64,000 nucleotides of DNA from Obelidium mucronatum (taxonomy: Eukaryota; Chytridiomycota; Chytridiomycetes; Chytridiales; Chytriomycetaceae), in contig JAIVFH010000075.1 in NCBI GenBank assembly GCA_025765595.1, positions 1 to 64,000 on the forward strand, in the 5' to 3' direction. Positions 1 through 53,112 of this stretch are shown one piece after another; the first letter of the stretch is position 1; every line of letters begins with the position of its first letter. Under the pieces are notes generated by a model, which worked only from the letters and a program-made list of their open reading frames with translations, was not told the DNA's origin and ran no database searches. The position numbers and the translations under genes were made by a program.

Positions 1-3000
1 CAGAACCAGGGGTTGAATGTTTCGCTGCTTTCCTGCAGATACATTGTCTTGCATCTGAATCTCCAGTCCATTAACAGTGTGATTTTGGAACTTGAAGTGG
101 AAATTTGGAGTATCGTCAGGTGGCATTTCCTGGACAGTTGAGCTCAGAGAAAATTCCATAGTCAAGTGGACTGGTTGCCTGGTGGAGAGCCTGGGATAAT
201 ATTGGATGAATGCACAATTCCAAGCCACCTCTGATTGACAACAGTTAAATCTTCAAGGTCCAGCTTGGTTATGGATTCAGCAGACGTTCTAGCCCTGAAG
301 ATGTGCCCTCTTCCAAAAGACGCGTCGAGAGCCCCATGAGTAGCTTGCTAGATGGTGTGCCAATTCCAGCCATTGAAGGATGAGATTTGAGCAACTTTTT
401 GAAAAGCAAGTTGAAGTTGTCTCTGTAGGTATTCCCAAGAAATGAATTAAGGGGAACATGAACTGTTGCCATAGTCTGTGGGGCGACGGCTGCAATGGCC
501 CTATCCAGCCCCCACTTTTGCAAGGACATTGAATCCCATGTCTTGACTTGGGGTCGAGCATTTCAGTACGGGTTGGCAGCGGCTTGCTGATTGTGTGTAG
601 TTTTGACAAAGATTCTTGGCCCAAGTCAAAAATCCCTCAAATACACGTGACTTTTGTAAAAGAGGGAGTGGATGGCTTGGACCTTGACTTGAGCAACAGT
701 GGGGTTGGCAGCACTTGGACTGAATGTGGAGGACTCCAAGACACAAAAGAGGGGAACCAGCTTTTGGGGGAAAATAGATTGATTTAATTGGCCAATACTC
801 AACAAATGAGATGGTTAAGGAAAACGCTCACCTTTGAGATGCTCTTGGATTTGTCAGCTCTAGTCTTGAAAACAACAGCAACCTCAGAAACACTGATGGA
901 CTTTGTTGGATTGGCCAAGTCAGGATCTTTGGTATAGATTCTGTACATGACTGTTCCTGGGTGCCACGTTCCTGGAGACTTGTCCAACTCAGTCAACTTA
1001 TCCATAGCTCGCAGGAACACAACATGAATTCCCTCACGCTGGATCTTGTAGGACCGGCTGATTAACTTCTTGTTGACCAGTGACAAGCCAATCCCAAGCA
1101 GTTTGGCCAGTAGAGAGAGCTCACTGAACAAAGTGCAGGCTTGACTGAAGGAAGCTGCAGAAACTGGTTGATTATTAACCACAAGCTGGCAGGGATTTCC
1201 ATTAGGATCATCCTCAACAACTGGAGGATCCACTTCCATGGCCACAGGGTCCGCAGGCAAAGTCTCCAGAGTTGCATCCACCATCTCCACATCTTCAGTA
1301 TCCACAAGAGCCACATTACCCAAAGCATTAGTCTCAATGGCCAAGTTGTGCTGATTGTCGTTGGCTATTTGGGTCCTGAAGTGGTGAATGGGAGTATTCA
1401 AGAGTCTTGCAGCATCCACCCACTCAGAAGAAGCCACAATCTTGGCTGTTGTAAACTTGATGCTCCCCTTTGGATTATATTGCTGTTTAGCCCCAAGTTG
1501 AACCACCGCATCAGCCAGAGACAGTTGATGCAACTTTGCTGTCTGGTAGTTGTTTCATCTTGCCAACCAGGGTCCAAAAGCACGATCAGCATCTTGATTT
1601 TTGAGGTTCTCATAGACTGTAGACCATTCTTCATCAGATAGGTCCACTCCAGTAAGACAACCAACAGTAGCCTTGATTTGGGTCAAGACCAAAAAGTCCA
1701 GCAACTTCAAATCTTTGTCCCGCATAGGAGCCTTTGGTGGATCCAGAATCCAGTTTGCTGTGCCGCCACCACCGCGTTTATTCCAAGTTGGAAATGTCCC
1801 TGACTGAAAGTTGTGTGGTGCAGTAGCAGGGTGGTTGATTGAAAAGATGGAGTGCTCCCCTACTTTGACAACATTCCCAAGAATCTTCATGATTCCCTTG
1901 TTGGTGACACACTGGCTAGCATCTGATCCAGCAACCAGTTGTTTCAAAATTTCAGGAGTATTGGACCCAAGCTCTTGTTGATTGGGGTAGTTTCCAGCTT
2001 TCGAAATTAATCTGAGCGTGATGGCATACATGGCTTGATGAGTGGCTTCAATACAAGCCTTGGAAGAAGACCCCAAGAGTGGTTGTGCGCAAACACCATA
2101 GTCCACCAGTAATTTTGGACAATAAAGGTAGCGGTTGAGCGAGAGCATGAACACAACTCTTGGGTAATTGGCTTGTGGGTGTCCAATAGCCTGTTGAAGA
2201 GTGCAGTGGCTGATGTCCCTGTTGGCTTGTAGCATGCCAAGACATGCGTCATTGATTGCCCAGCTCCAATCTCCAGTAAAACAGGAACACTGGTCGATTC
2301 CATCATGACAGCCTTGGGGGCACTTGTACAGACAGGGCACCACTTCAAACTTGGTGGTTGGCACCAACACACCACCATCAATGTCCAGAGAGTCGGTGTC
2401 AATGTTGACCTGCTGCTGATGGTGGATCACCTCCTTGATTTGAATCAGCGCGTTTTTGGCAGGGTGCTCAAACTGGAAAACTTGGAGAAACTCAGCAAGG
2501 CAAGTTTCCAAGCTGTTGAATACTTCAGGGCTGTGGTCAAGATGGGCTAAAAAGTCTTGACATTTCTGCTGCGACCCCCCCGATCGAACAAAGATGTCAT
2601 ATTTCCTAGCATAGCGTTGGACAAGATGGGAGGGAGCAGGGGCTACAGTTCCATTGGCATTTACAATCAAGGAGCCAGCAGGAAGGGCAGGTATGTCAGA
2701 ATTGGCCTTGAGGTAAGAAATAAAATAAGCACGTGAAGTGATTGATGGTAAAAACTGAACATTTGTTTACCTTTAATTTTTTGTTGGAGTCCTCCTTCTG
2801 TTGAGCCCTCGCGCGTTTTGGCAGTGGTGGTGGTTGGGTGGTGGCCTCAAGTACAAGGTCAACAGCTCTTTCTTTTCCTTTGTGCGACATTGGTTGTTTG
2901 GTTGTAGACGAGGAGGAGGGTGGAGGAAGGGGGGCATCAACAACTGGGTGCGGAACAACTGGAGGTGAGAAGGACCTCCACCATCACGCTTTGAGCTTTC

Positions 3001-3795
3001 CTCCTGGTGCTGCCTCCAGGCAAATACGACAATAAGGTGAGTTGTGAGAGAGAATCAACCCCACAATCTGTAAAATGGTAGTATGGGTTAGGGTCATTTG
3101 TGTGGAAAATGCTGGAAAATGTAATAGGGAACAAAAAAAAATAAAAAGGTACCTGACAGCAACAAACAGTCTCTTAGTACTTTGGATTTATATAATAAAT
3201 GTGTTTGTAGTGTGGGCACCCCAGTCTTGCAATAAATCATTTGTCTTGCATCACCAACAGTAGTACCAGGGCCTACCTGCAGAGCCAGAGTTGTCCCGTT
3301 GAAAAGCCGGACATGGACCTTAGACTTGATGCAAGCAGCATGTCTCAAGACTTTTTCCTGTTTGGAGGTGGAGGAGGACTTTGGAAAAATGTTGAAGTGT
3401 GTGTGAGTGTGTGTAAACGAACACCCAATCAAAACCAAAACATTCAGGTCACATACCATAGGAACAGAAATAACTGTGTCATGTTCTTGAAGCAACAGTT
3501 GCATTGCTGGTATCGACCGCGTTGCAGCTTGTGTTGTTGTTAGCTTTGTTTTTGGAGTCAAGGGGCAGGGTGTCTGGCAACAACCCCACTTGAATGGCCA
3601 CAGACAGTCAAGAAGTGCCATGGTTTGCAATCCTTGATCATCTTGCAAGCAAGGAGTGATGGTGGTTGTTGTCAAAGGGGCTGGCATCTGTTTGTGTGCA
3701 TCAAATGTTTGTCAGTGCACAGGGCCTATAACAGAGAAAATCAAGGATCCAGTACTCACATGGTTGGCTTTGGGCTTGCTGTGAGGGCGCTGCAT
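1..3795 (-). CDS. Ubiquitin-like-domain multi-exon gene, runs off left edge (partial)
   Basis: Exons on the minus strand form a long gene whose proposed start is at 3795. An internal ubiquitin fold is visible at about 3330-3010: it opens with SKVHVRLFNGTTLALQVGP, continues through LLYKSKVL and, after an intron, DCGVDSLSQLTLLSYLPGG, so it even keeps a Gly-Gly. It aligns along ubiquitin from MQIFVKTL to LRGG, but residues follow the GG. Next come a basic linker (LPKRARAQQKEDSNKKLK), a clean intron at about 2770-2706 and a long open domain (2670-1600) with a Cys cluster (CLYKCPQGCHDG) that I do not recognise. A TGA at 1552-1554 can be removed by a 45-nt in-frame intron (GTGCTT...ACAG). Further exons reach 832, then about 760-270, and an open frame continues to base 1. 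The join after the GG (about 2960) and the 760-270 part need a shift I could not resolve, so decay is possible. Function unknown. Confidence 0.55.
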
Positions 3796-4059
3796 GCTTG
3801 TTGAAAGGGCTCCAATATTAGGGGAGGGTGATAGTCTTGCGTCACAGTTTTTAGCTACTTTTTTGGCATATTTCAAGACAATGGATTTTTGATGAAGGAG
3901 AAAATTTTCTGCTTATTGTTCTCCACAAAGTCCTTTGCTCCCGCTATGACTCTGATTAGAGACATGGCAGTAGTTAAACCTACATGCCCCCGTTTGGGGA
4001 CACTTGGTAACATGAGGTGGGAACCAATAAGATTAAAAGCCAATCGAGTGAGAGTGAGA

Positions 4060-4072
4060 AGTGAGAGAGAGA

Positions 4073-4125
<53 letters not shown>

Positions 4126-4132
4126 AGATTCA
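4060..4132. repeat. GA-rich microsatellite
   Basis: A nearly pure run of GA dinucleotides with a few GAA interruptions. It lies in non-coding sequence upstream of the ubiquitin-like gene. Confidence 0.9.
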
Positions 4133-4146
4133 TTCAAGAGAACAAA

Positions 4147-4757
4147 TCACAGAAACATGAAAGTTTCAAACGTGTAGCCAATCAAGGGATTCACACCAAA
4201 CCAAACAGATACCAAAAACCACCACCAGCCGTGAGAATTCTCAACATACTGGTTGACAATGCAGTGCGTGTGAGGACATCTGCATTGCATGGAGGCCAAG
4301 GCTTCAGAACCTGGCTTGACAAAGGCACAGGTGGGCTCAAATATTACAGCCCCCTCCTCCCCCAGACAGACCAACACAACTCTGCTATCCTGTCTGCCTC
4401 ATACCCACAAGGATGGACCAACAATAAATAGCAGAGCACAACAGTTTTGGTAAACACAGTAAAACAGCCTAATTGAGAAACTTTCAGTGATCCACTGTCG
4501 AAAATAAAAGTAAAACTAGCCCATATTACCTTGAATAATACAAAGCCTCAATGGATGTGTTGGTGGTAGTTTGGGTGCTTGCAGGCCTGACAGATTATAC
4601 TTTCAGAGTCACCACAGGGATTCCTGATAAAATCAAACTGGACATTAGTCTCCTGCTCCAAATACCTGGTATTTTGCTTCCCTTTGTTGTATTTTTCGTG
4701 TTTTCGAAGCAGGTGTTGGAGACTTAACAACCATGAATAATTAGCACTCCAACACAT
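4147..4757 (-). other. Possible Cys/His-rich coding fragments, uncertain
   Basis: Two short open minus-strand frames (4757-4548 and 4377-4147) carry Cys/His clusters, IICQACKHPNYHQHIH in the first and MQCRCPHTHCIVNQYVEN in the second, which would suit exons of a small zinc-binding protein. I found no join that gives a continuous protein and no start signal, so these may equally be remnants or chance frames. The rest of 3796-5186 shows only AT-rich DNA and a GA microsatellite. Confidence 0.2.
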
Positions 4758-5186
4758 ATCAAAATCAAATAAATTAAATGAGGATATTTCTTACATTTAA
4801 ATAGGTCCATCTGAGCCAGAAAATAACGTGTTTTGGTGCTGAATGGTTGGCTGGTTTTAACCTGAGTGACCCAAGCAACGGCTATTGAATACAATCACTT
4901 GTTAATACAGGAGCGCTGCAGCAGGTCAAGATGTTTTGAAAATAAGGACTTACATCAGATGGTGGCTTGCTTGCTCAGGCCAGTCCAGTAATGCATGCCT
5001 TCCTGTCAAGTCAGGATTGTCAACCCCAGCGATCTCCAGGCCTTGACTGGTTCCAGGCATTCTGTTGATTGAACACACATGCCACGGAGTCGTTTATACC
5101 GCTCAAATGTCCTTGGTTGTATAGCTTGTGTTGGTGGTGGGGTGGTGGTGGCCAGCGAGTTTAAAATTATTTTTTGAAGTATTAAA

Positions 5187-5211
5187 TCTCATACTGCGGC
5201 AGTATGAGATT
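5187..5211. promoter_or_regulatory. 25-nt perfect palindrome, CATACTG family, copy 1
   Basis: The 25 bases are a perfect inverted repeat around a single central G (arms ATCTCATACTGC and its complement). The core CATACTGnnnCAGTATG recurs at 5896-5912 and 12098-12114, each time upstream of a plus-strand gene of the cluster. This copy is followed at 5240-5262 by another hairpin with GCCTACAA / TTGTAGGC arms. A dimeric transcription-factor site or a hairpin signal is inferred from the symmetry. Confidence 0.6.
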
Positions 5212-5634
5212 ATTCAATTCAAAGGGGCTTGCCAGCTTAAAGCCTACAATATGTTGTTGTAGGCTCTTTAAAAATTAATAATAATTTATGGTAATTTTGC
5301 TGCTGACAGTTTTGGCTCCAGGCAAGGGTTGTTTTTGTCTGCACTCACAGACCATTATATCTTTAGTAAAATAAGGCGCCCCATGGCGCCTTTCAGACAT
5401 TACGTGTATAACCATCTAAAAAACACTGTGTCAAAAGGACAAGGCGGGGCGCCAAAGTTATATCATGCTAAAGTGGAACAATATGTATGCACGCACCAAC
5501 AGGCCACATTCCGCTCAGATCCCACGCAGCTCCTCTTCACGCATCAATAGAAACATATTGAAACTATCTCATACACCAAGGGCGTCACAAGGCGCCAAGG
5601 GGTGCCAGAGTTATGAGCGTTACAAGATAACCAA

Positions 5635-5669
5635 CCCCCCCCCCTCCAACCCCCCCCCCCCCCCCCCCC
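5635..5669. repeat. C homopolymers (10 C and 20 C)
   Basis: Ten Cs are followed by TCCAA and then about 20 Cs. A 22-C run occurs in the homologous module at 11824-11845. Exact lengths may be affected by sequencing. Confidence 0.85.
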
Positions 5670-5895
5670 AACGATCAAAAAACTACTATACCGACTGACT
5701 GACTGGCTGACTGACTGATTTGTATTGTTCAGATTTTTCAACCTATTAGTTGGGACTGGACTGAATTGGTGTAGGCGGGCTTGACTGAATTGGTGCAGGC
5801 GGGCTTGGGGTGTGAAGGAGAGGTCATGGTGTGTAATACAGGGCATGTAGGTACTACTAGCTAGTGACATGCCAGTGTTTTGCATTTCTGCACTG

Positions 5896-5912
5896 CATAC
5901 TGTCACAGTATG
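5896..5912. promoter_or_regulatory. CATACTGtcaCAGTATG palindrome, copy 2
   Basis: Inverted repeat with 7-nt arms and a 3-nt centre, 182 nt upstream of the H3-tail-mimic start. The following bases (GGATAAAATTCTTC then an A tract) match the sequence after copy 3 at 12098, so at least 40 bp of context is conserved. Confidence 0.6.
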
Positions 5913-6094
5913 GGATAAAATTCTTCAAAAAAAAAAAAGAAGGCAAGGTGTATCGCGAAAGGCCGCGATACCATCCTCACGTGTTTTCGGTTAGTGTATT
6001 ACTACTACTAGTGCACATTTATTATTTTCACAAGATGCAAACCCATTTTTATAGTGAATGGGGATTTTAAAAAAATAGATTTAAATTTGTTAAA

Positions 6095-7263
6095 ATGGCA
6101 CGCACCAGGCAAACAGCAGGAAAAAGCACAGGAGGCAAAGCGCCTAAGAAACAACTTGCAACAAAGAAAAGGAGAAGAAACGCTCCTGCCGATTCTGTTG
6201 TATCAGGACCCGATGGTGCTGCAATCTCGGATTTGGTAGCTCTTGCAGGTACGTATTTAAGGGGTCAAACCATCCACATCTAAAGTGGGCTAATAGCATC
6301 CAGTGACTTTGCTGGAGGGCCCTATAACGTGAAAACTGTCATGCATGCCATTGATGCCATGAAAAATAACCCCATCAACCCAACCTCAGCAATGCCACGC
6401 ATACCCGTGTATAGATTCCTTGACCTTAAAGAAGCATGTAATATTCCGGAATCCCGGCCTTACAAGGGAGGGCTGCCTGTGAATGGGTTTGAGACACGGC
6501 TTTCACCACACGCCTCCAAATATGTTATGGGGAAGGCTCTTGGGTATGGAAAAGCAGATCAAGCAAAGCGAGAATTCTCCTGCATGAACGAGGAATCCAA
6601 AAGGGAATGGGCTGGCTGCTGTTATGCAACTTCCGAATACTGCAAACAAGTCATGGAAAAAGTGGAAGAGTTGGGTATGGCCATTGTCCATTTGGTATCT
6701 CAGACCAAGAAAAAGTAAGTAAATTTGGTTATTGGTAATTGGTTATAAAGGCGTAATTATTTTGTAGCGGCAAGAAGATTTCCCCAAGCCATTCCGTTGT
6801 GGTTGTAGTTGAGGAACAATCTGTTCTCTTCTTTCAGCCACATTTCTCGGGATTTCACTGGCCTAGGCCAGCCGTCCCTCTTCTTGCTGGACTGAATGAC
6901 AAGTTTACTCGCAACTTGTTTGTAGCAAACGGAAGACAAACTACCACGCATGACTGCTCATATCACTGCTTGGACTTCATTTGTTCCTACACATTGCTAC
7001 CCTCCAATGCTGGATTCCCTAGGTGCCAAGCAAGGAAATTTGACCGGGCCTTCATAAACGGGGAATACCCAACGAAGGCAAGACAGAAATTTGCCAAATT
7101 TCAAGACGCTGCTGGAAATAAAATTGTGTGGGAAGCATTTGACAACGCTATCCAACCAATGGTGTTAGAAAAGTGTGCTAGTCTTGAGGATCCGGATGAT
7201 CTCAGCTATGAAAGCGATACGTCGTTGAATTACACATCTGACGAAGAGTCAGTTGAAGAGTGA
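6095..7263 (+). CDS. Histone H3 tail-mimic protein, 355 aa, 3 exons
   Basis: Exons 6095-6248, 6297-6714 and 6768-7263 sum to 1068 nt, an open frame of 355 aa; the introns are 48 and 53 nt with GTACGT and GTAAGT donors. After Met the protein begins [19 protein letters not shown] and continues [12 protein letters not shown]: the canonical H3 tail with K4R, R8G, R17K, A24K, A25R, K27R and S28N, keeping K9, S10, K14, K18 and K23. What follows is not a histone fold. It is a soluble domain I do not recognise, with scattered Cys ([25 protein letters not shown]) and an acidic Ser-rich tail ending DEESVEE. The first ATG is chosen because it places Ala at H3 position 1. An AATAAA lies just after the stop. 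Mimicry of H3 toward modifiers or readers is inferred; the central domain's role is unknown. Confidence 0.85.
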
Positions 7264-7304
7264 GTGGTCTTCAACTGAGTGGCAGCAATGGATGTCTTAT
7301 AGGA

Positions 7305-7610
7305 TATAAAATAAACCGCATTTCAGTGATTTTGGCATTGTTTACCGTTGTACACTGTGAAGGAATCAACTGCAACAAAACCAACGGCCACTCCAGGAAG
7401 CCTGAAACTTTCAGGAATATTTAACTTGGTTTTTAAAATAGTTTTGAAATTTATTATGGGATTTTTCGTGCAGGCCGACAGGGGCTTGTGTACACTGTGA
7501 AGGAATCAACTGCAACAAAACCAACGGCCACTCCAGGAAGCCTGAAACTTTCAGGAATATTTAACTTGGTTTTTAAAATAGTTTTGACATTTATTATGGG
7601 ATTTTTTGGT
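7305..7610 (+). repeat. Downstream module A: 140-bp tandem duplication with palindrome
   Basis: Directly after the H3-mimic gene, the unit starting TGTACACTGTGAAGGAATC occurs at 7349-7488 and again at 7489-7605, nearly identical. Each copy contains the perfect palindrome CCTGAAACTTTCAGG (7401-7415 and 7541-7555). A diverged pair lies after the 380-aa gene at 11205-11490. The position suggests a 3' processing or termination role, or element-specific repeats. Confidence 0.75.
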
Positions 7611-8371
7611 TGAGTCATTGTTTGTTGGAAGGGTTTGACTTGTTTTATGATTATTGCCAGCCTTGTGGTACAGGGACTAGGAATCTGAGACCATAATTTT
7701 GTTATTACGTATCTATTAATGCTAGATCAAGTGTCATTTTGTGATTTTAGGGCCACGGTGGCGGTAAGACTGTTGAGAGTAAAACTCACCCAAAGATTTT
7801 AGGCAAGCACAAAAATCTTTGTAGCGCTTACCAATGGCTTTTCATGGTTGCTTTGTATTGGCTTGCATGGTTTTGAGAGTTGGGCCCATGGTGGTAGTGT
7901 GTTTGTGAGTTGTAGCAGAGAGGTGCTAGATTTCACCAAAACAGATTCCAACAAAGGGAAACCCATGCCCACCTTTTAGAAACACTTTAAAACGCTTATA
8001 GAAGTGTTTTCCACTCAGAATTTGCGATTGTACCACCGCGGTGATGGTGAGTTTAGTTTGGCCCAAAGTCTCAACACAACAACCCAACAACAGTAAGCAC
8101 AAAAATTCACAAAACCTCCACCAATGCTGTTTTTTACATTCTTTGGAGCTATTAGCATAGTTCCAGGGCTCTCTCTTCAGTATTTATAACATTTGTAGTT
8201 GTGAAGGTCCAGGGACCCAAACGCTTTTAGAATCACGTCCACTCACTCCGTCAAAACACAGAATATTGTTGTCTGGCACCATTTAAAAAGTGGCTTCTAA
8301 ACTCTGCCCTTGGCAATGTGGCACAACAAACAAAGATCTTTTATTCCACAAAAAACCAACAAACAAATAAA
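7611..8371. other. Non-coding stretch between H3-mimic and SET genes
   Basis: No frame here has coding character. Visible features are an inverted repeat AAAGATTTT...AAAAATCTTT (about 7792-7820) and a CCACCGCGGTG box (about 8032-8043) resembling the GGCCGCGGTG box of the repeats upstream of the 380-aa gene. Nothing else was recognised. Confidence 0.5.
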
Positions 8372-9361
8372 TCACAAATCAACATGCTTCATTGCTGCAA
8401 TAATCTGCTTGCGTTGAGCAAGTCTTTCTGCAGAGTCGGAGTGGATTTGATTCCAGTACACTCCATTTCTGTTTGAATTAAACCTGTACACCAAAAAGAA
8501 CTCACAGCCAGCAGCAACTTTTCGGATGGTTTCCACTGACACTGTTTTTTAAACTCTGTCCACGACAAAACGGCAATTCACCAGGCTTGCATTGGGAGCA
8601 TTGTTGATGAATCGCAGTACCCCAGAGTCTTCCCCAAATCCATCAATAAATGTGTCCTTTGACAGCTCCATCAAATAGGCGACGCGTGCTTGCTGCAGGG
8701 GGGCCTCTGAAGCCTCAATGTCATTCTTCTCCTTTCTAGAAAGGAGGCGCCTTCCATAAGTCACACCAAGACGTTGTTTTGCCTCAAAGTCCTTGGTGGC
8801 AACCAACCCAAAACCACCGCCAGGGATCAGCGATCCAACCACTCCCAAACCCAGTTGATCCGATGAGCAACTTGAGCACAATGGGTGAGTCAACACGCAC
8901 ATATCCCTGCATCCCTCCGTTGAGCACTTTCCACGGAAACTATACATTAACGGGTTCCCAGAATGGATCCACGATTCGGCACGCAGCAATTTTGAGACGT
9001 TGGTCTCGCCAGTGAAGGCAGCAATGACTTTAACCGACTGCTCCATGTAGTAGTGGCGATTGTAGCACTCTCGGCATCTTCCTGACATGTAAGCAACTTT
9101 TCCACACGGAGTTGGAGTAGCGGTGGTACAGTAGGTGATTGGTTTAGGGACTGGTTGTTTTTTTGGCTTCTTGGCTCCCGTCTTCTTTGCCCATGCCGCC
9201 TTGATGCGTGGCCAGTCTTTGGATTTGACCCCTTTTGGTCTCTGATCCTGGATGATGTTGGCGACGGCAATCTCAATGCGCTGCTTGGTGCCATAGGTGA
9301 ATGTCTTGTTGTTGTCCATATTTTCACTTCCTGAATTTTTTTGGGGACTTTTTTTGGTCAA
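8372..9361 (-). CDS. SET-domain lysine methyltransferase-like protein, in-frame TAA near the end
   Basis: The minus frame from 9361 has a basic N-terminus (AAWAKKTGAKKPKKQPVPKP), two Cys clusters (C-x8-C-x11-C-x2-C, then GKCSTEGCRDMCVLTHPLCS) and a C-terminal SET domain. Seen in it are the GFGLVA entry, the RFINNAPNASLVNC motif (equivalent to RFINHSC.PN) and, after the stop, ETIRKVAAGCEFFLVYRF, which fits the last SET strand with its Tyr. SET proteins methylate lysines using S-adenosylmethionine; this one may be chromatin-directed. A TAA at 8549-8551 interrupts the frame, which is otherwise open to 8372. Either the copy is truncated, or a 30- or 36-nt intron with a weak GTTTTG donor removes the stop at the cost of one strand. 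A second start at 9319 is possible. The gene is divergent from the 380-aa gene. Confidence 0.65.
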
Positions 9362-9434
9362 ACAAAAAGAAAAAAAAACACAAGTTCATCAAACAACCAA
9401 TAATGTCGGCAGAATTTGTTGATTTAGAACAAAA

Positions 9435-9694
9435 CAAAAAAAACCCAGTTTTAACCCCCAACACAACGGGAACCTCCCGACTACACTTGGATCGTGTTTC
9501 TATATGTTAACTAATCCCAAAAGTGATTTTACATGATTTTATTACGGCCGCGGTGATGTCTTGCAGTCAAAGTAAAAAAAAACCCAGTTTTAACCCCCAA
9601 CGCAACGGGAACCTTCCAACAACACTTGGATCGTGTTTCTACATGTTAACTAATCCCAAAAGTGATTTTACATGATTTTATTAAGGCCGCGGTG
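9435..9694 (+). repeat. Two tandem roughly 120-bp units upstream of the 380-aa gene
   Basis: Copies at 9435-9555 and 9574-9694 both run from an A tract plus CCCAGTTTTAACCCCCAAC through TTGGATCGTGTTTCTA and CCCAAAAGTGATTTTACATG to GGCCGCGGTG. A diverged third copy is at 11846-11939. They lie between the divergent SET and 380-aa genes, so they could hold a shared bidirectional promoter. A CATACTG half-site follows at 9711. Confidence 0.75.
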
Positions 9695-9775
9695 GATATA
9701 AACACATTGCCATACTGCAATCTTGGTGTTTTTCAATCAAAAATATATTTAATTTGTAAAAAATCAATTTGAAAA

Positions 9776-11105
9776 ATGGCCAACTTGCCCATGCTCCAAC
9801 CATTCAACCTTGCGGCTCTGGGCAAGACGCGAGACCTTTCCAAAGTAAACACCAATGAAGGCTTAACACTTGATCAGTTTCAAGAGCTGCTTCTTGGGCC
9901 CGAGACTGCCTTCTTCTACAAAAAGTCACTTGTATTCAAGGACAACAGGCAAAAGAAATCTTATGCCAATGACCTAGACTTCCAAGTATGGGCTAATGGA
10001 TTTGCACCAACTCAGAGAGAAGTAGCAACACTTCAAAAGTTGGTTCAACAACAAGGAATGTTGTTTGTCTTGGTCGCGTCTGAACACAAAAGGTATTACG
10101 GCCCCTTGTCTTTTTTAATGGGGTTAACCATACTCCCTCTTACATAATTGTACAGAGTTAAAAATACCCTCTACGCACCAACTCATTTCCAAGTTCTTGT
10201 ATTCCACCACGGCACGGCTCATCAAAGTGTCGTCTTTTATCAGCCCCTTAAGGACTTTGATATTTGGCCAACACAAACACATTTGCTAGTTACACATTTA
10301 CGAAAATCTTTTTTCGATAATATTCATATTGTGAATGGCTAGCAACACAGAGAATTGGGTATTTATTTCTTCAAATAAGAATATCCACGCAAAGTGCATC
10401 TAAAATAATGTACAATTAGATTGCGCCTTTCGATGTCTTGATTTCATTCGACAGTATATTGCCTTGCCTGACAGGGGAGGTATGCCACTCTGTTTGACGG
10501 AGCGAGTCATGCGTGTGCCATATAATGGCGACTTGGTGCAGGGGTCAAAATCCGAAAGATTTTTGAAGGGGGCGTTGAAGGGTGGAATGGGAGAGACAGG
10601 TAAGACCCAAAAGGACATGGCAGTGGGAGCTTCTTTCAGTGATTCTGATGGAGATGATTTGAGATGGGGGGACAATAGCAAAGAAGAATCAGTTGTGGAA
10701 GGTGGTCAGTGTGATGACTTTGTTATATTGATATCGGAGCAAGATGTGGAAACTAGCCAGGAAAAGGGGAAATCTTTGAAACAGGAGGTGGAATATAGAG
10801 AAGACTCTCTGGAAAAGGATGAGGAATATTGGCAGGAAAGGGCGGCGGAACAGGATCAGGAATGGCGTCCAGAAAGGGCGAAATCAGCGAAACATCAAGT
10901 AAAAGATGCTGACACATCTTCAGAGGCCTACTCTCCGGAGGATGACTGTGGGGAAGGTTTATCGTCTGATGCATCTGATTCTTCTGAAGGGGAAACTGAC
11001 GACAATGATTCATCATCAGCCTCATCCAGTGACGACTATCGAAGTTTGGATTCTGACATTGATTCAGAGGCAGGAGTGGATGCAAAACGACTGCGACGCC
11101 TTTAG
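9776..11105 (+). CDS. Cluster protein with acidic Ser/Asp-rich tail, 380 aa, 3 exons
   Basis: Proposed exons are 9776-10092, 10156-10330 and 10455-11105 (1143 nt, open frame). The first intron (63 nt, GTATTA...ACAG) is clear. The second (124 nt, GTGAAT...ACAG) is inferred because it joins two frames in phase; without it the first part stops at 10342. The N-terminal 165 residues look globular and include FQVLVFHHGTAHQSVVFYQP. The C-terminal half is highly charged, with Glu-rich repeats (YREDSLEKDEEYWQERAAEQ), Ser/Asp runs (SSASSSDD) and a basic end KRLRRL that could be a nuclear signal. I do not recognise a family. An AATAAA follows the stop. The acidic tail is shared in style with the H3-mimic protein. 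Confidence 0.6.
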
Positions 11106-11204
11106 AAAAATAAAGAAGCCCCAATCATTTCTTCTTATATCCTAACCAAGTGTTGGCTAATATCTAAACTTGCCTCCTCATTGTTGGCTGGTTTTAAAAA
11201 CTAA

Positions 11205-11490
11205 ACCGCAATTCAGTGATGTAGGCATTTTTATCATTGTAAATTGAGGAATCAATTAAATAAAAACCAAAAACCACCGGCCACTCCGGCCACTCCAGGA
11301 AGACTGAAACTTTCAGGAATATTGTAGTTAGTTTTTACAATAATAATGCCATTTATTCTAGGATTTTTGGTGCAGGCCGATAGGGGGTTTCTGTATTGTG
11401 CAAGGAATCAGATTAATCAAAAACCAACCACGACACCAGGAGTGTAACTTTCAGGAATATTGTAATAAGTCTTTACAATAATATTGACTA
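11205..11490 (+). repeat. Downstream module B, diverged duplicate
   Basis: Follows the 380-aa gene and parallels 7305-7610: an AACCGCAATTCAGTGAT start, GGCCACTCCAGGAAG, the CTGAAACTTTCAG palindrome (11304-11316), TTTCAGGAATATT, and GTGCAGGCCGATAGGGG leading into a second shorter copy with AACTTTCAGGAATATTG. Same order as after the H3-mimic gene but clearly diverged. Confidence 0.7.
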
Positions 11491-11549
11491 TTTGGTTAAA
11501 GGGGGTTAGATGTAGACAAAAGTTCAAGTTGTGCTCAGAGCGGTATCTT

Positions 11550-12097
11550 TACTAACGTAAGGCGCCGTGTGGCGCCCTTTCCACCTTACATGTTTAACTA
11601 CTCCTAAAACACCGAGTCAAAAGGAGAAGGTGAGGCGCCAAGGAGCGCCAAAGTTGCGCCACATTGAAGTGGTCGCAATACATATTCACGCATCAGCGCG
11701 TACATTTTTTAGCATGTTATGCAACCTAGTAATATAATAGGTTGGTTCCAACATTAGTTGGGACAGAATTGGTGCAGGCGGGCTTGGGGTGTGAAAGAGA
11801 GGTCATGGTGTGAAAATACACGACCCCCCCCCCCCCCCCCCCCCCAAGCAAGGGACCTTCCCAGAAACTCTTGGATTGAGTTTCTTAGTTTAAATAGACC
11901 CTAATAATGACTTTACATGATCTTTATTCGACCGCGGTGTGCGGTTGGTGTCGACTCTACACACCCCCACACCTTGTAATAACGCTTATAGCGTGTTTTT
12001 GCAAGTAAATATGCAACGTTAATCTAATATTAACAGCTTCAACGGATTTGGTGATACAGAGACAAGTGACTAGCTGGTGATTTGGATTGATGAATCC
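11550..12097 (+). promoter_or_regulatory. Upstream module B: hairpin, 22-C run, GCGG box
   Basis: Homologous to 5360-5945 and placed before the 659-aa gene. It contains a hairpin with AAGGCGCC and GGCGCC arms (11569-11586), the conserved line AATTGGTGCAGGCGGGCTTG plus GGGTGTGAAAG, 22 Cs (11824-11845), and a diverged copy (11846-11939) of the 120-bp unit found before the 380-aa gene, ending ACCGCGGTG. This links all three plus-strand genes to one cis vocabulary. Confidence 0.6.
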
Positions 12098-12114
12098 CAT
12101 ACTGCGACAGTATG
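12098..12114. promoter_or_regulatory. CATACTGcgaCAGTATG palindrome, copy 3
   Basis: Inverted repeat with 7-nt arms only 21 nt before the start codon of the 659-aa gene, followed by AGATTTAATTCTTTG and an A tract. The same flank occurs at copy 2. The position suggests a core-promoter or 5' UTR signal. Confidence 0.6.
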
Positions 12115-12135
12115 AGATTTAATTCTTTGAAAAAA

Positions 12136-14637
12136 ATGTACATGAACAGAGACCAAGTCGCTGCGAATCGCAACCAGGCCTTACCATTACGTGCCCAAGT
12201 CCTTGCACACATGAATGCTTCAAAGAACGGGGTCAATACTGTGGGGCAAGGTCAATCTTTGGTGCCGCCAGCAGGGGGATCTACAACACTAGCAATACCA
12301 AGTTAGTCGTTGTTTCTCCTTAATTTCATCATGCACCTGGATAACATCTAGCTATCAGAACTGATCGCAGCTGCTAGGGAAGGCGGTCTGTCGATTGTGG
12401 GAAGAGCCTCTCAACGCATGATGGGTATGTTGTTTGAATGACCCAAGCATTCAACCAACACAACCAAACATGGATCTGCAGAACCAAGCTCCTCTGTCGC
12501 CAACTCAACTGACAGGCTTTATGATTCAGTCAAAGGTTGGGGACTTGAGCTTTATATGTAAAGCTCAACATGATTGTTTTAAGGAGCGACGCATCTCATG
12601 GAGTTTGACGAGGAGGATGATTCTGATGCTCAAGATGAGGTTGAGGTCTTGATGATTTCTCTACGGCATTTTTATTCTAAACTGCTATTCCTATAGAATC
12701 CCTTCTCGGATGATGTTGAATTTGGCACCAGGTGTCTTGCAGTGCCAGGAAAACATTATTGTAACCACGCAAACGCTCAGAGATAATCAAGTTAAATTGG
12801 GGTTCTTATGTAGTTACATGTGGTAAGTTAACAATTCCTGCAGTGTTGCAACTAGTTAACTTTTAAGTCTTAGTCTCTGAAGAGTATGACTGGGCTTCCT
12901 TAGAGACTACAAACCCAAGAAAGAGGGCTTACCGTGAAATGTGCGGGAAAGCATTCAAATTCACAGGGCTGAAAATCACCACGGAAGCAAAATTCCGTCA
13001 GACAGTTATTGTTGGTATCACTGTTGCCCGGACTTGTTGGTTTTCAGATACTTATCTGAATGGTTGTGCTCCAAGAAAGGTGGATCTGTCGGATTTCTGC
13101 TTGCTTTTATTGGAGGCTTTTGAAGAGTTTATCCCCAAACCGTCAGTACACGGGATTGCAGATGTCTCGGTTGTGTTGAAAAACGCGTGTGGTTTGGACA
13201 ATGTTACAGGTAAAAGTTTGTATAAAACCATTGAAAACCACAAGAAAGGTATTCTTTTTTTCTTTTTATTTGGCAAATTAATTGTGATTAATTTATTAAG
13301 TTGAGTAGGGATTTCCTCGCCTGTTGCGGCTTCCCTGGCTGTTACAAAGGAAACGTCACCTCTGGATTGGGACACTGACGCTGAAATGTTTGGGGGGGAA
13401 CTGGACTTTAGCGATTTGCACGGACCCCCTCAACCGCGTTCCGCAGAGCCATCGCCCGCACCATCAGCCAAAGATCCCCAGCCCGATGCTCAAGAAGTTC
13501 AAAGTCCACCACCAGCATCTGGGCATGATAGCCCCCCCTCATCTCCCTCTACCCCAACCTCTGTTTGCGAAGCCACATCTTCTCCACCTCCAAAAAGAAC
13601 CCATGGTGGGATTTAAAAAGCTGCAAACAAACAACCAAGAGTTGCCAAAGCAAGAAAGAGGCGCCATTCTTCACCAGCACCCTACAGCAAGTCAACAGTA
13701 TCTGGAAGAAAACCAAGGGGTCAGAATATACCCAAATCTTCTGATGCTGAGCAACTTATTGCTGATCATGGGTCTTTCATCCAGCAAGCGTTCGATGCAA
13801 CATTTGAAAAGGGCAGCGCTGATGAGGATCTTGTCGATGTGTCAACCACTGCCAACCCTGTTTATGTGACAAGTGAGCGTTCAAGAGGGGCGGCAAATTT
13901 TCTGCAATACGGAAATCTTACAATGACCGAGTTCCTGAAACGTATTACTGCAGCAGGATATGCAAAGCAGATTGGTCAAATCTTTGCGGACGCGTTCCCT
14001 GCGTGCCCTGCGGGTATGTTATTGTCTGTTTCTGTTGATTTCTTTTTTGGATGCCACAATCTAACCAACAAGAAAACAAGCACCCCTCTCAAAGGAGCTA
14101 GTGTCTGATTTGTCAGATAATGCAGAGGAACTGTCTGACAGGGAAGGTGATTTAGTTCAAGGGGGGAAGGATGTTGCAGCAGCACCAGGGAGAGGCTCCG
14201 CAATCAGTGGGGAAGACTCACTTGGTTCTGTTGGAGTCGGTGGTAATGAATCAGATGCTACCAAAGATACAGAAATGTCGGAAGCCAACAAGGGATTTAG
14301 CCTACATGAAAGTGAAATGGATGTTCAAGAGTTCCTCACTTACCGTGGCGGAACACCTCAACTGCCTTCCACTGCTCCTCAGCATACTACTCCAGAGGAT
14401 TTCAACCCCAAAATTCACTGGATCTTTACCATGGCCAAGGAAGCGGACGTTGAGATTCTGGTTGGTTCTGAGTGGCAATTGGGGACACTACGTACTCAAA
14501 ATTTCACTGCGGGAAAGTTGGAATCTGTTGCGATTTGGTTTTATAGAGGTAGTGAAAGTTTTGTCAAAATTGACGTTAAAGACCCACGTCAGTTGGTACA
14601 GTTGAGAAAACCAATTGAAGAATATGTTGTTGAGTAG
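12136..14637 (+). CDS. Cluster protein, 659 aa, ten exons, likely nuclear
   Basis: Ten exons read by eye sum to 1980 nt with one open frame: 12136-12301, 12359-12424, about 12482-12535, a 62-nt exon (about 12584-12645), a 35-nt exon ending near 12732, a 29-nt exon ending near 12810, then 12868-13209, 13309-13605, 13642-14013 and 14081-14637. The protein has a possible N-terminal helix region, an acidic segment (EFDEEDDSDAQDEVE), a globular block around EEYDWASLETTNPRKRAYRE that ends near LLLLEAFEEFIPKP, a Pro/Ser-rich linker, a basic motif KARKRRH typical of a nuclear signal, a helical block (MTEFLKRITAAGYAKQIGQI), an acidic region and a C-terminal beta-rich block (WQLGTLRTQNFTAGKLESVA). No family is recognised. 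Nine introns with an intact frame argue that the gene is expressed and under selection. Confidence 0.7.
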
Positions 14638-14887
14638 TTTCCTGCCTTTTATTCCTTATTTTTGTATATTTTTGCATGATATCTGAATTGCTTGTGTTTT
14701 GTTTTTGTATTCCTTTCTTTTGTATCTTTTGCATTAATAAATATAAAGTATAATTATGTAGTTCATTCACAAAGCAAACAGGGGATACGAATTAAAAGAT
14801 TGCTCTTTTATTCCAGGAACCACCAAACCTGGATACTGTTTTAAACAGTATTATCTTAAGTTTACTGTGAATGCAACTGACATTGCT
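14638..14887. other. Intergenic gap with polyadenylation-like signal
   Basis: T-rich 3' region of the 659-aa gene with TTAATAAATATAAAG at about 14734, then an odd-centred palindrome TACTGTTTTAAACAGTA (about 14834-14850). It could lie near one end of the neighbouring transposon, but I found no convincing terminal inverted repeat. Confidence 0.4.
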
Positions 14888-16335
14888 TTATTTTGTGTAA
14901 AATAAAGAGAGAGCTTTATGAAAAGAGTTGGTAAAGACAGAGTTTGGAACTTCCTGCCATGACTTTTCAACCCAAGTGCATACTTCAAGATGAGTTGGCT
15001 TCCTTCTCCAGCTGCCAGTTGACTTTTCCATAATAGTCTCTCTATTCCACCTTTTCCAGCAATTGCGCAGATTCCGTTTGAAAGGATTGATTATTCCCAC
15101 ATTCAATGGTTGTAGTAATCCAGTGTATCCACCAGGAATTGTTGCAATATCAAGATTAAGACGCTTACATTTACTCTTGACTTTGTCAGTAAGGTGCTGT
15201 TTTGCAGAGTCCCAGATAATCATTTTCCTTCCAGTGTTGGTACCCCTTTTGGATATAGCGGGAATCACATGTGACAGCATAATCTCCTCATCCATCCATG
15301 CATTTTTTGGCAGCAGACACTAACTTTTATATTCGCTTCCTTCACTGCTTTGGACACTTGTTTTGACAGCTTTGCGTTCTTGGCGCCTTTGAAAATAACC
15401 AAGGGTTCTGCACGTGTGCCATTAGCCGCACCGGTGAGCCCTATTGTAATTCCATTCTTGTCATTTCCAGAGTTGGCACAAACTATACGTGATGCTCCTT
15501 TAAAATGTACAGTATATGGAGATGGCATGTCGAAATAAATACAAGTTTCATCAAAGTTTTGAAAGTTGCTGCATTTGTAATCATTTGACTCGTTGAATCT
15601 ATTTAAATACTCAAAGAAGTTAGTAACTTTAGGATCTGTGCAGTTGTCTTGTGTCAGTGGCATCACAGGTTTTGTTTTTTTCATTGTTGTGGTTCTGGTG
15701 TGGTCTTGTGTCTGGGGAATAGGTATCTTCATGAACAAGGGTAGATCAAGTGGTGAGTTTTGGTTCAAAAGAAGTCCCTTGCTGCTTGTGGTAGAAACCT
15801 TGAGTCTAGCCAAGTTAAATCTCCGAAGAAAACCATACACCCAACTGGTTGACGCTTTAAATCTGGCACCTATTGGGTGATTAGTAACAACAAGAGAATA
15901 CATCCACTCCCGCAGGTCACTGAAGGAAACTGTAAGCCCGTGATTTCTTTGATCTGCAACAATTGAAAACAGTTCTCTTTCTTCGAAAGGGAATCGGCAT
16001 TGAAGCATGGTCGGAGAAAAGACTGCTGTTGAGACAATTCCATCTCTATCTATTAGTGTCTGCGACAATGGCTTTGGTTGTTGGATTAGTGGTTTCCTTT
16101 GGGTTAGTGGGTTTATGCCACCACCAGGCATACGTTTTCCCCATCCTAAATGAACAGCTCCTTTTCCTCTAGCTTTAACATCAGCCTGGACTCGTTGGAT
16201 AGATCTGATCCACTTTGAGAGAGTAGACCTGGACAAATGGTGATCAGCTGCCACTTTGGCGGCAATACCACGTGTCGTTAGACTGTTGGTAGAGGCTGAA
16301 GCAAGAAGCTGTTGATAGATAGCTACAACGCGCAT
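14888..16335 (-). pseudogene. Broken pogo/Tigger-like (DDE_1, CENP-B type) transposase
   Basis: Starting at ATG 16335, the protein has an N-terminal helix-turn-helix (TRGIAAKVAADHHLSRSTLS), a second DNA-binding part with WVYGFLRRFNL, and a DDE_1 core: first Asp in NFDETCIYFD, then FKGASRIVCANSGNDKNGIT. At 15303-15308 (an A run on the coding strand, 6 A) the frame shifts. Restoring one base continues the core with AWMDEEIMLSHVIPAI, IWDSAKQHLT (second Asp) and LLQPLNVGIINPFK, where the usual third Asp is Asn. The frameshift and the altered triad both indicate an inactive copy. Terminal inverted repeats were not identified. It separates the left cluster from host genes. Confidence 0.85.
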
Positions 16336-16534
16336 TTTGTACACTAGAGTGTGTGGTAATTGTCATGGTTTGACAATTTTTTATTTGAGTCTTTCTTTTT
16401 GAAATTAACAGTATTTCTTCCCTTTGGGGAGTGTATGAATCCTAAGTGTTAATTTGGATTTTATTGTTGCCATTTAAAACTGGAAGAATCTTTCTTAAAA
16501 CTAAAGTTTTAATATAACAAAGAGTGACAACACC

Positions 16535-48166: not shown

Positions 48167-51100
48167 ATGTACTCGTTCCTGTGCGACCGCCGCCACGAGG
48201 CGTGCGGAATCCCCGGACAGGGCAGCGGCAGCAGCGGCGGCGCCACCGCGAACGCGAGCGCGGGCGCCGGCGCCAAGGAGGCGGACTGGCGCATGCGCGA
48301 GCGGCTCAAGACGGTGTCCGTGGCGCTCGTGCTGTGCCTGAACATCGGCATCGACCCGCCGGACGTGCTCAAGACGGCGCCGTGCGCAAAGACCGAGTGC
48401 TGGGTCGATCCGCTGTCGCTGCCGCCGCAGAAGGCGCTCGAGACCATCGGCAAGAACCTGCAGCAGCAGTACGAAGGTGGGTTGTGCCGGTGTGTTCCTA
48501 GCCACCTGCTGACTCCACCGCCCCAGTCTGGCAGCCGCGCTCGCGCTACAAGGCGCTGCTCGACCCCTCGTCTGACGAAACGAAAAAGACGTGCTTGTCC
48601 CTGCGCAAGAACGCAAAGGACGAACGCATTCTGTTCCACTACAACGGCCACGGCGTGCCGAAGCCAACGAAGGGGGGCGAGATTTGGGTCTTCAACAAAT
48701 CCTACACACAGTATCTGCCGTGTTCTATCTACGACATCCAGACGTGGCTCGGTTCTCCTTGCATCTATGTATTCGACTGGTAGCTCCCCCACTTTAGCAA
48801 TTAAGTACTAAATGCATTGCAAACACAAGCTCCAATGCGGGCAACATCCTTCTTGCCTTTGAACGGTTTTCCGATCAACGCGACGAAGAAGCAAGTCGGG
48901 CAGCTGCCGCCGCCGCAACGTCGACGGATGGACCGAGTGCGCCCCCGTATGTGTCAATGAAAGAATGCATTCTGTTGGTTGCTGTTGAGTGCACGTTATG
49001 TTTATTTTGGTTGGGGATTTTTTTACTGATGGATGTCCGCAGTGTGGTCCAACAGACACCTTACCCATGAATCCAGATCTACCTGCTGATTTATTCACTT
49101 GTTGTCTTACTACTCCAATCGAAATTGCTTTGCGTTGGTTCGTGTCTCAAAATCCACTGCTTCAAAATATCAACACCGATATGATCATGAAGATACCTGG
49201 ACAGCTCAATGACCGCAGAACTCCATTGGGAGAATTGAACTGGATCTTCACCGCCATCACTGACACGATCGCATGGAATATGCTGCCTCACGATCTGTTC
49301 AAAAAGTTGTTTCGACAAGATTTGATGGTCGCTGCACTCTTTCGAAACTTTTTGCTGGCCGAACGCATCATGCGCTATTATCACTGTACTCCTTTGTCTT
49401 CTCCGGTGCTTCCGTCTACCCATCAACATCCCTTATGGTCGTCGTGGGATTTGGCGGCTGAAATGTGCTTATACCAGCTACCCGATTTGCTAAAAGCCCC
49501 CAATACTGTGCAATATCAGCACTCGTCCTTCTTTTCGGAGCAATTGACAGCATTTGAAGTGTGGCTCTCAAAAGGGCCCATTGCAAAGTCCCATCCGGAG
49601 CAGCTTCCTATCGTGCTGCAAGTGCTTTTATCACAAGTACACCGCCTCCGTGCTCTTATGCTTCTCTCTCGGTTTCTTGATCTTGGTCCATGGTCTGTCA
49701 AATTGGCCTTATCCGTGGGGATTTTCCCCTATGTTCTCAAACTCCTTCAAAGTCCAGCCGCTGAACTTAAGCCAGTTCTTGTTTTCATATGGGCTAAAAT
49801 CCTTGCACTCGACAACTCTTGTCAGAACGATCTTCTCAAGGACAATGGCTTCACATACTTCATCAATATTCTGACTTCAATCAACAGTCCTAATATTATT
49901 CCGAATATGTCTGAACACCGAGCCATGTGCGCCTTCATTTTATCTGTATTTTGCCATGGATTCCGCTTTGCTCAGGAAGCGTGTCTCAAAAACGACCTCC
50001 TCCTTACCCTCTCCCTTCATTTAAATGATCCTGACCCGCTCCTGCGCCAATGGGCATCCATTTGTCTCGCCAAGACTATCGAAAACTACCCCCAAGCACG
50101 AGACCATTGCTTGAAGGAGAATCTGCACACCCGCATTCTCCATCTCCTGAATGACTCTTTTAGTGAAGTGCGAGCGGCCGCTGTGTTTGCCATCAACAGC
50201 CTTGTTCAAGATGTATTTCAAATCAGCGGGGGGAAGATTGTTGATCATCCCAAATACGTAATGGTGGTTGAGAACTGTGTCTGCGAAGCCATATTGCATG
50301 GACTAAGTGATGCAAGCCCCATTGTCCGCAAAGAGCTGGTGATACTATTATCTAGAGTTGCATCGGTGAACTTTGAAAAGTTAAAAAAGGCGGCTATTGA
50401 TACGATTCATGAAGAAGGGGGTGTTGTTGTTTCTTCGGACGAATCCGAGGCACAACAACAGCAACAACAGCAACATTCTGAAAACGGATGGCAGAACCAA
50501 CACCGTGTATACCAGTGTGTATACAAGGCTTTGTTAAGTTTGAGCGTGGATCCCTTCCCACTCATTGCGAGTTTGGGAAGCCATGTTCTGGATCGTATAC
50601 ACATTCCCTTGCTTCTTACAAACCAAGTCACCTTCAATGGTGGAACTGGAAGCGGAGTAGCAGGAAACGGAGGATATGCGGCTCCTTCTTCTATGGCTGC
50701 AGGGAAAGCAAGTACAGCGAGTATTTCTGGGTTGGCGGCACCAAGCGGATTGAACTCGCCCTTCAATGTCAATGCAACTATTCTCAAACGACAGAGTACT
50801 CACAACCAAAGCTCTGCCTCTTTGAACACGTTAGGTAGCAGTAGTAGTGGGGGTGCAACTGCGATCCCAAAGAGAAACACTCTGATTCATGTCGAAGGCG
50901 GCGGCGGACTTTATTCATCTTCAGTGGCGTCGAATGCTTCATCAAATGGAGGCGGCCTGAAAAGAAACAGCAGTTTTGTGAATCCGTTCAAGAGCTTGCA
51001 AGGTCTTGCGTCGTTGGTGACGTTCCCTAGTGTTGGGATGAATTTGTCATCTCAAGGAGGAGGTGGTGCAAGTGGCGGACAAAATGGAGATGAAGGCGGT

Positions 51101-52731: not shown

Positions 52732-53112
52732 AAGCAAACAAATAATAAAAATACTTGCTGAGCGAATGTAGCACTTTACTTGACCAGAGTGGCGAAGTTT
52801 TTTACTTTGGGGTTGATTTTTTTTGTATTGGTCAAGTTAAAAAACAATCGGAAAACAAAGCAGCCTGTGAGTGTTCATCACCCCATCCCCACCACTACAC
52901 GCATCTGCCCACCAACAGCATGTCAGCAACAAGATACTGAAGAGAGTCTGCTGATGTGCTTTGATCGTCCCTTGATGGCTCCTGGGGCGCGAGATCGTCC
53001 CAAGTGCCAAGATGTCTTTGAAGAGGGATGCACTCAACTAACCACACAATTCAACCCCTATAGGCTCTTTAAATATCCTTTGTTCACTTTAAGAATCTTC
53101 AAATAATTAACG
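52732..53112. other. 5' region of the uL10 gene, no gene recognised
   Basis: About 380 bp between Raptor and uL10. It contains a C/A-rich tract (CCCCATCCCCACCACTACAC) and AT-rich sequence just before the uL10 start, both plausible for a strong ribosomal-protein promoter. A 108-codon open frame here has no protein-like features. Confidence 0.5.

Follow-up and report, generated by a model that had tools for sequence, protein, structure and literature searches.

Most known cases of histone mimicry involve short or loose motifs, found in viruses and in host regulators. Influenza NS1 and G9a/EHMT1 carry H3-tail mimics of a few residues at C-terminal or internal positions, and the non-histone protein PAF15/PCLAF has an H3-like N terminus that is recognised by chromatin proteins. 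SETMAR is a host gene in which SET and mariner sequences are fused. SNAG domains such as that of Snail1 mimic the H3 tail and recruit LSD1 (PMC12612597). Among DNA transposons, the non-TIR MULEs of the KIU/VANDAL type in plants carry an Ulp1 domain, the role of which is unknown, and the anti-silencing protein VANC (PMC13317346). Fanzor1-bearing Mariner elements are of the TIR/TA type, with one in the chytrid Spizellomyces and extra genes in some (Bao and Jurka 2013, PMC3627910). Histone mimicry, H3-like N termini (PAF15) and transposon-borne Ulp1 domains are already known.

We analysed a stretch of 64,000 nucleotides (the window; bases 1 to 64000 of contig C75, with C-numbers denoting contigs of the genome) from the chytrid Obelidium mucronatum (Chytriomycetaceae), in which a transposon gene encodes a protein that begins with an H3-like tail. 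In contrast to the mimics of NS1 and G9a, this tail has true N-terminal position and length. PAF15/PCLAF resembles H3 much more loosely and is a host replication protein with no transposon and no peptidase; its 'histone like' N-terminal family PF15715 weakly matched residues 1-28 of the protein of lineage A3 (16.4 bits, below the cut-off of 23.4), and this was the sole histone-related Pfam match. SETMAR likewise brings SET together with a mariner-type element, but here SET is encoded by a gene of its own, which some element copies contain. SNAG domains, too, mimic the H3 tail from within a non-histone protein and bring in an H3 enzyme (PMC12612597); they are, however, short, diverged and found in host transcription factors, whereas the tail described here has about 30 residues and is nearly that of H3. 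KIU/VANDAL elements are similar as DNA transposons with an Ulp1-type peptidase domain alongside an anti-silencing protein, but they belong to the MULE superfamily of plants, and the word 'histone' is absent from that review, which accordingly describes no H3 tail (PMC13317346). The Fanzor1 Mariner elements share the TIR/TA type, a chytrid host and extra genes in some, but the one from Spizellomyces has a length of about 2.1 kb, the term 'SET domain' appears 0 times in the text, and an H3 tail was not seen there (PMC3627910). A whole H3 tail at its natural N-terminal place, fused to an Ulp1-like domain on a transposon, was not found among the open-licence PMC matches listed, subscription literature being outside the scope of the search. 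What is presented here is a nearly complete H3 N terminus in its natural position on a mobile-element protein in two genera.

The H3-tail gene and its protein

The gene in the window (copy A1) extends from 6095 to 7263 and is predicted to have three exons, with a spliced open frame of 355 aa.

6095 to 6248, plus strand: exon 1, with the ATG at 6095
6098 to 6190, plus strand: H3-like tail within exon 1, corresponding to H3 residues 1-31
6249 to 6296, plus strand: intron 1 (GTACGT...AATAG), with an acceptor conserved among copies and the same splicing in gene model P0002
6297 to 6714, plus strand: exon 2, the middle region, mostly helical in the predicted model
6715 to 6767, plus strand: intron 2 (GTAAGT...TTGTAG)
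6768 to 7263, plus strand: exon 3, a CE-clan-like peptidase core and then an acidic C terminus, with the stop at 7261-7263
Within exon 3: core motifs, namely the His in PSHSV, an invariant Gln in FQPH, and the Gln and Cys in RQTTTHDC

The 355-aa spliced frame of the original prediction was reproduced. Both the C35 and C54 copies and the A2 paralogue keep the AATAG acceptor of intron 1. P0002 (BDR26DRAFT_936627), the public model for the C54 copy, shows the same splicing as the window gene. An alternative acceptor of intron 1, giving 348 aa, was dropped because AATAG is the conserved one. Residues 1-30 after Met are identical to those of host H3 (locus C2) at 23 of 30 positions, with mismatches at positions 4, 8, 17, 24, 25, 27 and 28, in exact agreement with the count and positions first claimed. 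A profile of four family proteins matched solved H3 chains with a best E value of 4.6e-12, which rules out a chance resemblance to H3.

The matches of H3 chains to the profile span residues 1-38 at most (best 60 of 137 matches). No core-histone Pfam family was found on any of the four proteins of alignment A1, nor on any of five sequences rescanned up to an E value of 10, so that the claim of an H3 tail on a non-histone protein was upheld. The possibility of a simple variant H3 was rejected, since a histone fold was found neither in the Pfam scans nor in the best 60 of 137 solved-chain matches, which stop by residue 38. None of the weak Pfam matches (XTBD, Nop14, PAF and others) was above any cut-off given. 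Among the best 120 of 1065 matches, only P0002 to P0005 had no histone domain listed in the precomputed Pfam column; P0002 to P0004 are Obelidium mucronatum proteins, and P0005 is from Rhizoclosmatium globosum.

The remainder of the protein resembles a CE-clan cysteine peptidase of the Ulp1/adenain type, a similarity that is supported but not proven by a motif and a low-confidence model. H210, Q259 and C265 (P0002 numbering) do not vary among the four aligned proteins, and the Q-x5-C spacing is that of Ulp1. The third-triad position, placed by eye on the weak model, appears to be Gln225, again invariant in all four; some viral CE-clan members use Asn there. With the low-confidence model, Foldseek matches 1 to 27 were by name CE-clan-fold proteins, as were the 50 VIA structural matches listed. 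The likeness to Ulp1, SENP, NEDP1 and adenain lies in the predicted core fold and the His...Gln-x5-Cys motif, and the differences are an acid position that is apparently Gln, the lack of a significant sequence match, and the H3 tail.

The transposon, its copies and conservation of the tail

The original prediction had called the gene product a protein of a putative selfish element. The first 16.4 kb of the window were found to be part of a transposon with the following features.

1 to 16411, no strand: right-hand part (~16.4 kb) of the transposon, which extends leftwards past the contig start
802 to 2733, minus strand: element gene that corresponds to a 664-aa frame in C67 and is interrupted by a single TGA in the window
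3166 to 3318, minus strand: ubiquitin-like domain in an element gene (ORF 3094-3711; PF00240, 29.3 bits, cut-off 25.4)
8549 to 9319, minus strand: SET-domain gene, truncated (256 aa versus 315 aa in the C54 copy)
9776 to 11102, plus strand: gene B, with part of the peptidase-like region and no H3 tail, in pieces and apparently decayed
12867 to 14637, plus strand: gene C, for a protein of no assigned family, with a similar frame in the C67 element by eye
14888 to 16362, minus strand: transposase with HTH_Tnp_Tc5 and DDE_1 (pogo/Tigger type), in two overlapping frames
16362 to 16411, no strand: right terminus, TIR ...GAAATTAACAG, followed by TA at 16412-16413

Long stretches of 1-16411 were about 90-97% like sequences on C54, C35, C136, C118 and C67, each match covering part of the region with insertions or deletions (counting alignments of at least 100 bp). 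The inverted terminus CTGTTAATTTCAAAAAGA had 28 genome matches with at most one mismatch, and its reversed control had 0. TA adjoined 21 of the 23 termini read among these 28, those at C53, C286, C657, C45:194396 and C71 being outside the count. A complete element of 19,433 bp is present at C67:13048-32480; its inverted termini are both flanked by TA, and it contains an A3 gene. The A3 genes of C118 and C149 are likewise some 6-7 kb away from a terminus of this kind. The transposase scored 71.2 bits for DDE_1 (cut-off 22) and 27.8 bits for HTH_Tnp_Tc5 (cut-off 22.2) and is an uninterrupted frame of 523 aa in C136. Given these termini, the complete copy and the transposase, the H3-tail genes of Obelidium are genes of a large transposon of the pogo/Tc1-mariner type, and the selfish-element claim was supported. 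The transposon ends, the second genus and the CE-clan-like body had not been part of the original prediction.

The genome (48.3 Mb in 694 contigs) was searched with the 348-aa version, and the resulting counts are lower bounds. At least 13 copies or pieces of the H3-tail gene were found, excluding gene B and the H3 genes. The 5' exon is retained in 9 of the 13, and the tail is present in all 9; the copies without this exon (C36:302k, C45, C14 and C392) were excluded from the tail counts. Tail copies of lineage A1 are on C75, C35 and C54, those of A2 on C35 and C53, and those of A3 on C67, C149 and C118, with a decayed A3 relative on C36. The A2 tail in C35 reads ARTPQTASRSTGGHAPKRDL and is followed by an acidic insert, the tail of the decayed A2 copy in C53 begins ARMPQ, and among the A3 tails that of C67 differs, reading KRL. 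Identity of the body is 59% between A1 and A2 and 30% between A1 and A3. The R. globosum homologue, P0005, is 45% identical over 96% and has the tail ARTAQTARRSTGGKAPRKRI. A D-[SA]-x-V-x-G junction after the tail is common to all four lineages, which points to a single fusion event just after H3 residue 31.

Conservation was compared in twenty-column windows among one representative per lineage (A1_C54, A2_C35, A3_C149 and P0005), leaving out the decayed A2_C53 and A3_C36 and near-identical copies. Mean pairwise identity was 0.675 for the 20-residue tail versus 0.403 for the body, and was 0.75 for tail residues 1-16 alone. None of 283 overlapping body windows reached the value of the tail, by a small margin, with the windows at the Q...C motif (0.667) and the H...Q motif (0.658) coming nearest. 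In simple binomial comparisons of these related sequences, the tail was more conserved than the body for A1-A3 (15/20 vs 30%, P 4.6e-5) and A3-P0005 (15/20 vs 30%, P 3.6e-5), more weakly so for A2-A3 (P 0.0076) and A2-P0005 (P 0.036). The difference was marginal for A1-P0005 (P 0.057) and was not seen for A1-A2 (P 0.38).

Ten of the 20 tail positions are invariant in the four representatives: A1, R2, T3, Q5, A7, S10, T11, G12, G13 and P16. The exact retention of Ala1-Arg2-Thr3 that had been claimed is seen in these representatives but is broken in two decayed copies, with AKT in C36 and ARM in C53. Replacement of K4 and K27 did not prove to be a rule of the family. Position 4 is R in A1, P in A2, K in A3 and A in P0005, position 9 is K in A1 and A3 and R in A2 and P0005, and position 14 varies between K and H, with His in A2. 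K4 and K9 are both retained in all three A3 copies. Because K4 and K9 differ between lineages, the suggested escape from K4/K27 marking explains just part of the pattern.

The shared tail residues are encoded by divergent codons. A1_C75 and A3_C149 have 16 tail residues in common and the same codon at only 6 of them (CGC/AGA for Arg2 and AGC/TCC for Ser10, for example), with a pS of 0.73 and a pN of 0.20. In comparison with two host H3 copies, the A1 tail had a pS of 0.74 and 0.99, and these codon differences argue against a recent copying of the tail from host H3. The A3 tail lies nearer to one of the host copies, with a pS of 0.52 and the same codon as H3b at 11 of 19 shared residues, so that gene conversion with host H3 is possible in this lineage. 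The A1 body evolves under constraint (C75 vs C54: dN 0.015, dS 0.098, dN/dS ~0.15). With mean conservation on par with the best body window despite heavy synonymous change, the comparison supports the earlier claim of selection on the tail, which is retained with about the same strictness as the catalytic-type motifs of the body.

Possible functions of the tail

We tentatively propose, at somewhat less than even odds, that these chytrid pogo/Tc1-mariner-type transposons encode a CE-clan peptidase with a captured H3 tail that docks it on H3-binding host proteins and thereby counters silencing. Host methionine aminopeptidase would expose Ala1, as in real H3, and the tail would then act as a counterfeit ligand, docking the peptidase on host proteins that bind the free H3 N terminus through the positions that have been kept (A1-R2-T3-x-Q5-x-A7 ... 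S10-T11-G12-G13-x-x-P16). The docked peptidase may strip SUMO, ubiquitin or a similar modifier, for example from silencing factors, and removal of the modifier could relieve silencing of the element or clear chromatin for transposition. A precedent is offered by the KIU/VANDAL elements, which unite an Ulp1 domain with an anti-silencing protein (PMC13317346). Basic residues after position 20 probably add nuclear import.

Several host proteins are candidate partners. PHD and ADD domains read the unmodified H3 N terminus, and readers of this kind might be bound. Gcn5-type acetyltransferases, which engage H3 through GK-x-P, are likewise candidates, with A2 departing from that motif by its His at position 14, as is CoREST/LSD1, which SNAG domains reach via H3 mimicry. 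WDR5-type proteins would match the A1 and A3 tails, since the WIN consensus of WDR5, A-R-[ACST]-[EKR] (PMC11261779), fits these two and fails for A2 and P0005. The original prediction had also suggested recruitment of K9 heterochromatin factors, which we set aside as an unlikely shared function because two of the four lineages have Arg at position 9. Overall, the pattern of residues fits a docking label better than a substrate of K4, K9 or K27 enzymes or a plain nuclear localization signal (NLS), because the free N terminus and STGG-x-x-P are invariant and the mark-bearing lysines are variable.

H3 tails are carried by importins and have an established import function, and basic clusters follow the tail in the four lineages (KKRRR or RKRRRK, KKPRGK, NKKG and AAKKRG). 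The tail could be mainly a borrowed nuclear-import signal on a protein that is carried by importins and acts elsewhere. However, an NLS requires lysines, and those at positions 4 (R/P/A/K), 9 (K/R) and 14 (K/H) vary, while the ten positions listed above are constant in the representatives. We consider this explanation unlikely.

The SET gene bears on another possibility, in which the tail is a substrate or switch that is modified by the SET protein of the element or by host kinases or acetyltransferases, or is processed by the peptidase, turning the protein on or off. The SET domain scored 25.2 bits in the window, 35.8 bits in C54 and 37.6 bits in P0130 (cut-off 22.4), and the nearest solved structures of the SET protein were those of KMT5A. 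R. globosum has both an A protein and a SET protein (73% identical), the other SET relatives being two jgi-sourced proteins on 2-kb contigs. The SET gene adjoins the tail gene in C75, C54 and C35 only. This pairing is partial, however, as 4 of 7 SET places (C31, C41 twice and C16) are on contigs without a tail-protein match and 5 of 9 tail copies (C53, C67, C149, C118 and C36) on contigs without a SET match. Moreover, the likely methylation sites K4 and K9 vary, and the SET motif reads NNAP rather than NHS. A role of the tail as a switch therefore seems decidedly improbable.

A soluble decoy that titrates H3 modifiers or readers, with a body that merely stabilises or expresses the tail, agrees with a tail that is near full length and 23/30 like H3. 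Titration, which had been suggested originally, is possible in itself but leaves the fusion to a peptidase-like domain unexplained; the peptidase-type motifs are conserved almost like the tail, and a low-copy gene product would have to be highly expressed to titrate its targets. The decoy is, in our judgement, very improbable. Finally, we give very little credence to a passive remnant of an old H3 exon capture, persisting by chance or renewed time and again through gene conversion from host H3. The A3 codons are fairly near one host H3 copy, but those of A1 and A2 are near-saturated against host H3, the junction is common to the lineages, each lineage has its own tail substitutions, and no part of the body is better conserved than the tail.

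If, as proposed, the tail docks an isopeptidase on chromatin complexes, this would be a new transposon route against silencing. The lineage-specific changes at K4, R8 and K9 around invariant residues amount to a natural mutagenesis of the H3 tail, and such natural variants indicate which contacts matter without the nucleosome. A broader reading, which we regard as doubtful, is that the transposon lineage carries a chromatin-counterfeiting kit, consisting of the H3 tail-Ulp1-like isopeptidase, the SET protein, the ubiquitin-like protein and an H3-type histone (the last in one copy), and hijacks the H3-tail machinery against its own silencing. If so, a whole histone tail would serve as a molecular address label. 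The findings suggest a jumping gene that impersonates chromatin to handle the gene-control machinery of its host.

Other genes and sequence features

A large gene at the left-hand end of the C67 element (C67:13104-17553, minus strand) has DPGGR and C4-RD features that resemble those of Fanzor/TnpB, to which its assignment is tentative. P0124 fits the pattern D-X(125,275)-[TS][TS]xx-C4-X(5,50)-RD (1 of 132 proteins; 1 of 5000 shuffles), with the Asp of DPGGR 295 residues off. The Fanzor Pfam match scored 14.8 bits against a cut-off of 26.3, and a Fanzor-type PDB match was not found for this gene, the model of which was unusable. It has at least four relatives, three in Rhizoclosmatium and one on a 4.3-kb contig. 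The pieces of gene C that were scanned had no Pfam family above cut-off. An NCBIfam match of the SET protein (NF043024, 21.5 bits vs a cut-off of 550) was disregarded, and no viral relatives of this protein were found in a scan of viral contigs. A viral origin of the A protein was likewise rejected; its single match, of 47 residues on a contig with phage-like-looking neighbour frames, was taken as chance.

The ubiquitin-like domain and the peptidase-like genes occur in one element and are a possible modifier/peptidase pair. In one element copy, a histone-fold H3 variant (MARSKPAPKAQQSQKTPRR...) is present just upstream of SET at C35:36140-36632, and the public model P0126 joins this histone (134.6 bits) and SET (34.7 bits). 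Several strongly diverged H3-fold genes in multiple copies were seen at C45:214326, C15:380520, C2:761858, C202:36441, C6:625035 and C20:245856. These have non-H3 tails (GRKRQPPKR..., PRKRHTPKK... and PTKKPRKQV...), some are C-terminally extended, and they are possibly another repeat family. Diverged histone-fold genes near TIRs were considered as cargo, but the two compared (C73 and C6) fall outside the termini as oriented and were not counted.

At C14:296820-297683, by our reading, a copia-like reverse transcriptase frame immediately precedes a truncated member of the H3-tail gene family. Within the element in the window, palindromes of the type CATACTGNNNCAGTATG are present at 5190-5206, 5896-5912 and 12098-12114, inside longer repeats. 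Direct repeats of 118-120 nt are found at 7349/7489/11251 and 9436/9575/11820, and poly-C tracts of 10 to 22 bases at 5635-5669 and 11824-11845. The host genes that flank the element, identified by eye in the regions 34-46 kb, 48989-51631 and 53107-54060 of the window, are an axonemal dynein heavy chain, a Raptor-like protein and a ribosomal P0-type protein.
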